Positions 9,883 to 20,076 of a DNA stretch of 64,000 bases are shown here, in pieces (position 1 is the stretch's first letter; every line of letters begins with the position of its first letter). Position numbers and translations under genes: made by a program. This stretch comes from Clostridiaceae bacterium (GTDB lineage: Bacteria > Bacillota > Clostridia > DSM-8532), in the NCBI GenBank assembly GCA_012728015.1, contig JAAYFY010000037.1, forward strand, positions 1 through 64,000. Direction: 5' to 3'. A model generated the notes under the pieces. That model saw nothing but the letters and a program-made list of their open reading frames with translations. It was not told the origin of the DNA and made no database searches.

Positions 9883-9990
9883 ATGAGTAAGGACAAGCAA
9901 AAAACCAATTGCGACAACGAGTTAAACAGGCAGAATAATAAAGCCAATAATAACAGGAACAGGAATACTCAAAACAATAAAGACCAATAG
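9883..9990 (+). CDS. Asn-rich 35-residue peptide, function unknown
   Basis: A short gene with a strong RBS (CGGAGG, 9869-9874) and an ATG at 9883, ending at TAG 9988-9990 just before a perfect terminator. The 35-residue product starts MSKDKQKTNCDNEL and is made mostly of Asn, Lys, Arg and Gln, without hydrophobic residues enough to fold. One Cys is present. Composition recalls small spore or nucleic-acid-associated peptides of Bacillota such as gamma-type SASP, but no family motif is visible. The RBS plus terminator make it likely to be a real gene. No function is assigned. Confidence 0.6.
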   Translation: MSKDKQKTNCDNELNRQNNKANNNRNRNTQNNKDQ

Positions 9991-10001
9991 GTGATTTAGG
10001 C

Positions 10002-10034
10002 AAAAAGCAGGAACCGGAAGGTTCCTGCTTTTTA
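10002..10034 (+). terminator. Rho-independent terminator after the Asn-rich gene
   Basis: A 14-base stem (10002-10015 with 10020-10033), AAAAAGCAGGAACC and its exact complement, closed by a GGAA tetraloop and ending in five T. It isolates the short gene from hpf and could work on both strands. Confidence 0.88.
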
Positions 10035-10078
10035 CTCCCTTTGGGGCCAAAAACTGTTCTGCTGACAGCTTTTACACA

Positions 10079-10109
10079 TTATCCACATGTTATCGACATA
10101 TTATCCACG
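10079..10109 (+). promoter_or_regulatory. Cluster of three DnaA-box-like sites
   Basis: TTATCCACA (10079-10087, exact consensus), TTATCGACA (10090-10098) and TTATCCACG (10101-10109), all in the same orientation and each starting exactly 11 bases after the last, about one helical turn. They lie 100-130 bases upstream of hpf. No dnaA, dnaN or other origin gene is nearby, so a regulatory or titration cluster is more likely than oriC. Confidence 0.6.
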
Positions 10110-10207
10110 GTGTTGAAAACCCGTGTGAAACAGGTGGAAAATAAAGTGATTTATATGCACCATCAAGGGTAAAATTATAATATGAAATAACAGGAAGGAG
10201 AGTTCTT

Positions 10208-18096: not shown

Positions 18097-20076
18097 ATGC
18101 CAGAGAAACAAAAGCAGATCTACGGAAATGAAAGCATCACTTCTCTCAAGGGAGCGGATCGCGTCCGGTTGCGGCCCTCGGTCATCTTTGGCTCTGACGG
18201 ACTGGACGGCTGTGTGCATTCATTCTTTGAGATACTGGCCAACTCCATCGATGAAGCCCGGGAGGGTTTCGGGAGCCTGATCAGGGTCACAAGGCACGCG
18301 GATTACTCCATAACCGTGGAGGATCAGGGCCGGGGGATCCCCCTGGATTTCAACCCCAATGAACAGCGATATAACTGGGAACTGGTATACTGCGAACTCT
18401 ATGCCGGGGGGAAATACATGAACAACTCGGGCGAGAACTACGAGTTCGCGTTGGGGCTTAACGGCCTCGGAGCCTGCGCTACCCAGTACAGCTCGGAATA
18501 CATGGATGTAACAGTATTTCGCGACGGTTACAAATACGAGCTGCACTTTGAAAAGGGCAACAATATAGGAGGTCTGAAAAAAGAGAAGTGCGGTTATGAG
18601 CATACCGGCACCATACAGAAATGGAAGCCGGACCGGGAGGTCTTCACCGATATCAGGATACCCCTCGAGCGTTTCAGGGATATCCTGAAAAGGCAGGCTG
18701 TGGTCAATGCCGGGCTGGTTTTCGAACTCATTGACGAAGAGAGCGGGACCACCGAGAGGTTCTGGTATGAGAACGGCATTATTGACTATGTAAATGAGCT
18801 GGGGCAGGGAAAGAACCTGACTTCGGTGCAGTATTTCGAAGGCTTCGCGCGGGGCCGGGACAGGGAGGACAAGCCTGAATACAAGGTTAAGATGCAGGCG
18901 GCCTTTTGCTTTAACAATGAGATTAACCGCATTGAATATTACCATAATTCCAGCTGGCTGGAATACGGCGGCGCGCCAGACAGGGCAGCAAAAGCCGCTT
19001 TTGTGGGCGAGCTGGACAAGTACCTGAAGAACAATGGCAAGTACAATAAGAACGAAGGCAGGATTACCTTTTCGGATATTGAGGACAGCCTGATCCTGGT
19101 CACCAATACCTTTTCCACCATGACCAGCTATGAGAACCAGACTAAAAAGGCCATAAGCAACCGGTTTATCCAGGAGGCCGTAACCGACTTTTTAAAGCAG
19201 CAGCTCGAGATTTACCTGATTGAGAACAAGGAAGAAGCCGAGAAGATCGCGTCCCAGGTCCTGGTCAATAAGCGGAGCCGGGAAACCGCCGAAAGGGCCA
19301 GGATAGACATCAAAAAGAAGCTCGGGAAAACCCTGGACGTGTCCGCAAGGGTTAAGAAGTTCGTGGACTGCCGGAGCCGGGATGTGAATAAGCGCGAGCT
19401 GTATATCGTGGAGGGCGATTCTGCCCTCGGATCATGCAAAATGGCTCGCGACAGCGAATTTCAGGCCATAATGCCTGTCCGGGGCAAGATACTTAATTGT
19501 CTGAAAGCGGAATACGACAATATCTTCAAGAACGAAATCATCGTGGATTTGATAAAGGTTCTGGGATGCGGCGTTGAGATAAAAACCCGACATAATAAAG
19601 ACTTGAATACCTTCGATATGGACAACCTGAAGTGGAGCAAGATCATCATCTGCACCGATGCCGACGTTGATGGATTCCAGATCAGGACGCTGCTTCTGGC
19701 CATGATATACAGGCTTATTCCCTCGCTGATAGAGGCGGGAAAGGTCTATATCGCCGAGTCCCCACTCTTTGAGATCAGCACAAAAGAGGGCACCTGGTTT
19801 GCCTATTGCGATAAAGAAAAAGCGCAGATCCTGAAACGGCTGAAAGGCCAGAATGCAGTCATCCACCGATCCAAGGGGCTTGGGGAGAACGACCCCGAAA
19901 TGATGTGGCAGACTACCATGAACCCGGAAACCAGGCGTCTTATTAAGGTGACCCCCGATGAGACCGGGGAAACCAGGAGATACTTCAACCTTCTGTTGGG
20001 GGATGACCTCCCGGGCCGCAAGGACTATATCGCAAAATACGGACATGAATATACCGATTTCATAGATGTTAGCTAA
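18097..20076 (+). CDS. Type IIA topoisomerase B subunit, ParE/GyrB-like
   Basis: The ATPase and TOPRIM subunit (659 aa) of a second gyrase-like enzyme. The GHKL ATPase is intact (ANSIDEA near 48, DQGRGIP near 78, and LNGLGACATQ where typical GyrB has GLHGVGAS). The transducer is followed by the TOPRIM motifs EGDSALGS near 441 and DADVDG near 528. Its divergence from canonical GyrB and the partner gene downstream suggest the clostridial TopoIV-like pair that resolves linked chromosomes rather than the oriC-linked gyrase. The ATG follows GAGGAGCGGG. It is bracketed by two repeat copies and separated from its partner by 346 bases. Confidence 0.9.
   Translation: MPEKQKQIYGNESITSLKGADRVRLRPSVIFGSDGLDGCVHSFFEILANSIDEAREGFGSLIRVTRHADYSITVEDQGRGIPLDFNPNEQRYNWELVYCELYAGGKYMNNSGENYEFALGLNGLGACATQYSSEYMDVTVFRDGYKYELHFEKGNNIGGLKKEKCGYEHTGTIQKWKPDREVFTDIRIPLERFRDILKRQAVVNAGLVFELIDEESGTTERFWYENGIIDYVNELGQGKNLTSVQYFEGFARGRDREDKPEYKVKMQAAFCFNNEINRIEYYHNSSWLEYGGAPDRAAKAAFVGELDKYLKNNGKYNKNEGRITFSDIEDSLILVTNTFSTMTSYENQTKKAISNRFIQEAVTDFLKQQLEIYLIENKEEAEKIASQVLVNKRSRETAERARIDIKKKLGKTLDVSARVKKFVDCRSRDVNKRELYIVEGDSALGSCKMARDSEFQAIMPVRGKILNCLKAEYDNIFKNEIIVDLIKVLGCGVEIKTRHNKDLNTFDMDNLKWSKIIICTDADVDGFQIRTLLLAMIYRLIPSLIEAGKVYIAESPLFEISTKEGTWFAYCDKEKAQILKRLKGQNAVIHRSKGLGENDPEMMWQTTMNPETRRLIKVTPDETGETRRYFNLLLGDDLPGRKDYIAKYGHEYTDFIDVS

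Follow-up and report, generated by a model that had tools for sequence, protein, structure and literature searches.

The question raised by this locus is why DnaA boxes cluster in front of hpf, the gene for a ribosome hibernation promoting factor. Our window is a stretch of 64,000 nucleotides from a Clostridiaceae bacterium (contig JAAYFY010000037.1, positions 1 to 64,000). An earlier note had described three tandem DnaA boxes here, in one orientation and at 11 bp steps. Direct reading of the window finds them as described, on the plus strand between 10079 and 10109. The description was correct for these three boxes and incomplete beyond them, since TTTTACACA abuts the first and degenerate minus-strand boxes follow to 10141. 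The three boxes are contained in a wider, partly inverted array (10070-10141), with a terminator on one side and a putative hpf promoter on the other. All features are listed in Table 1. Note that box calls are matches to the consensus. The predicted promoter has a sigma-B/sigma-F-type likeness, rather than a sigma-A one; its GGGTAA element recurs before hpf in several families. Rfam gave no credible RNA match near the array in the window, and a leader RNA at this position was rejected for that reason. Directly upstream of the array is a 35-residue open reading frame (9883-9990), rich in Asn, Lys and Gln (MSKDKQKTNCDNELN...), which has its own terminator and similar text in genus relatives. 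Elsewhere, the window encodes a GyrB/ParE-like topoisomerase subunit (18097-20076). This is additional to the gyrB beside recF, and its score falls short of the curated cut-off of every gyrB/parE model.

Table 1. Positions of the DnaA-box array and its flanking features in the window.
Feature	Positions	Strand	Remarks
Terminator-like hairpin and T run	10002-10033	+	AAAAAGCAGGAACC-GGAA-GGTTCCTGCTTTTT; kept in genus relatives; divides upstream small ORF from array
Flanking DnaA-like box TTTTACACA	10070-10078	+	Abuts box 1; TTTTCCACA in relatives; conserved in g1 and g2
DnaA box 1 TTATCCACA	10079-10087	+	Perfect consensus; conserved in g1 and g2
DnaA box 2 TTATCGACA	10090-10098	+	TTATCAACA or TTATCCACA in relatives
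DnaA box 3 TTATCCACG	10101-10109	+	Peculiar to source genome; not conserved within genus
Inverted degenerate box TTTTCAACA	10111-10119	-	TTATCAACA in relatives; inverted TGTTGATAA conserved in g1
Weak inverted box-like sequence TGTTTCACA	10124-10132	-	3 mismatches; relatives' version more box-like
Inverted degenerate box TTTTCCACC, promoter-proximal	10133-10141	-	From the sequence and relatives
Putative hpf promoter GATTTA-N13-GGGTAA	10148-10172	+	Prediction; TGATTT...GGGTAA conserved in g1 and g2
hpf, long-form ribosome hibernation promoting factor, 176 aa	10208-10738	+	TIGR00741, 74.6 bits against a cut-off of 40.9

Near-consensus DnaA boxes are common here. The window has 25 with at most one mismatch, some enrichment over the 14.6 expected, and this abundance, like the lack of conservation of the third box, speaks for a chance or non-functional pattern. 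The arrangement of the boxes is another matter. The window has one same-strand triple with 9-13 bp steps, and none of 40 window shuffles has any; the shuffles preserve dinucleotide transitions approximately only. Genome-wide, where counts come from pattern searches, the strict tandem pattern TTATCNACA-N2-TTATCNACA (TTATCNACANNTTATCNACA), with up to two mismatches, has a sole match in 2.19 Mb: the window array. Furthermore, the array is conserved across families, and boxes are kept where the flanks diverge. Uniqueness, shuffles and comparative data together lead us to reject chance, which is extremely improbable. We conclude that the array is probably a real control site for DnaA.

Conservation of the region in related Clostridia was a check that the earlier note had proposed. 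The family has 26 hpf loci, mostly in draft genomes, and 25 have readable upstream DNA (the single g4 locus begins at a contig edge). Box clusters precede hpf in five of the seven genera (g1, g2, g3, g5 and g7), so the refuting condition named in the earlier note, boxes not conserved in relatives, does not hold. Among the 25 readable loci, genomes G012 (g2) and G026 (g6) have no box cluster at hpf; in some g2 and g5 genomes the box set is reduced or lies only partly inside the stretch read. Altered DnaA specificity in G012, which has lost its hpf boxes, was considered and rejected, since the DnaA recognition segment is unchanged. The DNA-binding segment of the source genome's DnaA is canonical. 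At family hpf loci, the first boxes and the inverted boxes are conserved. The elements kept throughout the genus to which the window belongs are TTTTCCACA, [TC]TATCCACA, TTATCAAC[AC], inverted TGTTGATAA and GTGGAAAA. Four genus members have a readable hpf locus. Among them, the third plus-strand box (10101) is not conserved, and the second step measures 11 or 12 bp (12 bp in one relative). Hence, exact 11 bp steps are not the conserved property. The argument that DnaA would sit on one helix face rests on those steps, and most relatives use 9 and 12 instead.

To place the array in a wider context, we surveyed hpf upstream regions in 103 sampled Clostridia genomes from 49 families. In 20 of the 103 genomes (10 families), the 500 bp preceding hpf hold three or more boxes inside a span of 120 bp; by the same count, 0.0 is expected from shuffles, and a control region lying 1000-1500 bp upstream gives 0. 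Many of the arrays have one stereotyped geometry: a box, the next about 31 bp on (mostly 30-34), then one at +12 bp and one at +9 bp. Scoring for the 12/9 triple splits the genomes into those with 2-5 mismatches and those with 9-14, while 206 shuffles give at least eight. Note that the 31/12/9 geometry was derived from the same data, so this test is post hoc; over-fitting is unlikely, as the geometry recurs in many families and its scores are set apart from those of the shuffles. The group with 2-5 mismatches comprises 24 of the 103 genomes (11 other families); in these, the module lies no more than 500 bp upstream of hpf, always pointing toward hpf and never reversed. Among tandem pairs across the class, 9 bp steps occur in 36 of 103, 12 bp steps in 55 of 103, and 11 bp steps are rare (4). 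The copy in the window is partly degenerate and does not keep the 31/12/9 geometry. Named carriers of hpf box clusters include Anaerobutyricum hallii and Chengkuizengella axinellae; at 63 of the 80 nearest named HPF loci, many from Paenibacillus and Bacillus, there is no box within 350 bp. In several families (L210, L198, L216, L146), the module is followed, after a few dozen bases, by an inverted repeat of type ACAAAACAnnnGTTTTGT. In sampled genomes of f21, f23 and f31, the raiA/ModT RNA (RF03072) lies in the hpf-upstream intergenic region, upstream of the array. The two have this region in common; raiA/ModT is a transcribed RNA, unlike the DnaA-box array.

Could the array be a second or cryptic replication origin? 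Its many boxes, partly inverted and intergenic, would be in keeping with one. The absence of a replication-initiation gene nearby, as previously remarked, holds for the hpf neighbourhood: dnaA, and oriC, are on another contig. The dnaA-dnaN intergenic region of the source genome has boxes and a DnaA-trio, TAATAGTAATAA, and a trio is present there in 20 of 25 relatives too, whereas the hpf region (10037-10207) has no DnaA-trio run. Similarly, GC skew across the window does not switch near the array. The earlier note had advised GC skew as a way to the true origin. In G031, a complete relative sampled every 150 kb, the skew switches are at dnaA and around 1.4-1.5 Mb, with none at hpf. Hence, skew and the missing trio rule out an origin, for which we see next to no chance.

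We then asked how the array relates to hpf itself. In g2 (11 genomes), GGGTA lies 36-37 bp beyond the start of the promoter-proximal inverted box, while the distance from promoter to ATG varies between 42 and 54 bp. Hence, in g2, the array is placed relative to the promoter. The array-to-putative-promoter distance in g1 is about 34 bp. Such spacing would suit an array that is primarily an operator, at which DnaA, probably in its ATP form, would activate or repress hpf and tie ribosome hibernation to replication state. The same reading draws on the direction of the array, which always points at hpf, and on hpf being the commonest gene downstream of the module across families. It is weakened by the distance from box array to promoter, which varies in g3, g7 and other families, and by the 79 of 103 sampled HPF-bearing Clostridia genomes that have no module at hpf.

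The position of the module in other families bears on the same point. In f5, f42 and f38, some 3.5 kb separate it from hpf downstream, and an amino-acid ABC operon intervenes. In f20, it precedes an ABC operon and hpf is inverted nearby. The f22 module adjoins a zf_Tbcl zinc-finger gene and precedes ABC genes or cas6, with hpf elsewhere, and the module is also found at other places in f26, f8 and f44. We conclude that the module, being parted from hpf by an ABC operon or standing at loci without hpf, behaves as an independent DnaA-binding locus that is mostly at hpf. This counts against a dedicated operator, which we judge possible rather than probable, though a serious rival. The proposed tie to hibernation is supported in part: it gains from the fixed promoter distance in two genera and loses from the module's separation from hpf elsewhere. 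Further arrays occur in the source genome. The second, with 9/12 bp steps, is directly 3' of tsaD (gcp), outside the window (L362:3060-3089; in the source genome C82:113059-113088, minus strand), and is common to family relatives and f16. A third cluster, TTATCCACAgTTATCCACAgggcTGTGGATAA, is likewise outside the window (L035:1896-1927; in the source genome C37:7395-7426) and common to genus relatives; its neighbours are an apparent alpha/beta SASP gene and a rhomboid-like gene.

The earlier suggestion of a DnaA-titration or regulatory cluster is well supported, since conservation of the array at hpf extends through the family and to 11 further families of the sample, and origin features are missing. 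More specifically, our preferred explanation, held with moderate confidence, is an extra-origin DnaA-box cluster. Like clusters of the B. subtilis type, it has three or more boxes resembling the consensus, close together between genes and outside oriC. DnaA would bind the paired boxes cooperatively and assemble into a short oligomer on the intergenic DNA ahead of hpf. The main effect would be titration, with the array keeping DnaA from oriC as proposed for B. subtilis clusters, and the bound oligomer would probably also modulate hpf transcription. We propose such modulation in this genus because the array ends beside the putative hpf promoter. Persistence of the module with a new next gene (ABC operon, cas6), together with the further loci, would be expected if the module were a DnaA sink and not an operator for one gene. 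In B. subtilis, deletion of six such clusters results in early initiation (PMC5295017; PMC13220808). A site that survives a change of neighbour gene, and the advance of initiation on cluster removal, make a titration cluster the best reading. Three points count against it. A single cluster, with its four to seven boxes, may titrate weakly; removal of six clusters was needed for a strong effect in B. subtilis (PMC5295017). In addition, co-orientation of the array with the downstream gene, most commonly hpf, fits an operator too. The window copy, moreover, is partly degenerate. Note that titration and hpf control may both be true in this genus, whose array ends next to the promoter. Clusters of the B. 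subtilis type would be expected in the origin-proximal part of the chromosome. In five complete relatives, the module is 0.08-0.25 of the chromosome from dnaA; the source genome is a 97-contig draft.

In E. coli, datA, DARS1 and DARS2 work together with host factors to affect DnaA nucleotide state. Like the array, they are non-coding DnaA-box loci outside oriC with a set box geometry; they differ in that nucleotide-state activity, the array being known here from its sequence. An element of this kind, altering DnaA nucleotide state via fixed box geometry, would account for the strict spacing across families and for the location outside oriC. That YabA has no match above cut-off in this family also speaks for it; ten genomes have weak sub-threshold matches, so the absence of YabA is not proven. 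The window copy, which departs from the 31/12/9 geometry, speaks against such a role. Furthermore, B. subtilis has no known loci for DnaA-ATP/ADP conversion (PMC5295017). We therefore consider a datA/DARS-like element improbable.

Little is known of extra-origin limitation of DnaA in Clostridia. In the open-access literature, we found no published hpf-DnaA link, and nothing relevant on DnaA with HPF, YvyD or raiA RNA. Speculatively, and with more doubt than conviction, Clostridia might possess an extra-origin element dedicated to DnaA control: a module of four boxes at fixed 31/12/9 bp steps, mostly at hpf, that would couple ribosome hibernation to DnaA availability and be a main initiation brake where YabA is unrecognisable. 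A deeply conserved array of fixed geometry is a precise, mutable site at which titration and transcriptional control can be weighed. Through it, replication control may also be tied directly to ribosome hibernation in a large group of anaerobes from the gut and the environment.

Among known systems, clostridial oriC (dnaA-dnaN, oriC2 of C. difficile; PMC7561715) has the same DnaA-box consensus as the hpf array, and differs in having a DnaA-trio and a skew switch, neither of which the array has. DnaA-controlled promoters of the B. subtilis sda type resemble it in that a box array adjoins a promoter, at a fixed distance in g1 and g2. Conversely, the hpf array, recognised here from DNA sequence, is not tied to one gene across families. 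The B. subtilis clusters outside oriC include those at gcp, ywlC, sda/yqeG, yydA, ywcI and trmE, as given in reviews citing Okumura et al. 2012 and among the regions of Smith and Grossman 2015 (PMC4447404). Like the array, these have several DnaA boxes, are intergenic and lie outside oriC, and some are at promoters. They differ in position: by region name, none of the major regions given in PMC4447404 is at hpf, and the names yvyD and hpf occur 0 times in that paper. One position is common to both organisms: B. subtilis has a DnaA-binding region downstream of gcp (PMC4447404), where the source genome has its tsaD/gcp 3' cluster.
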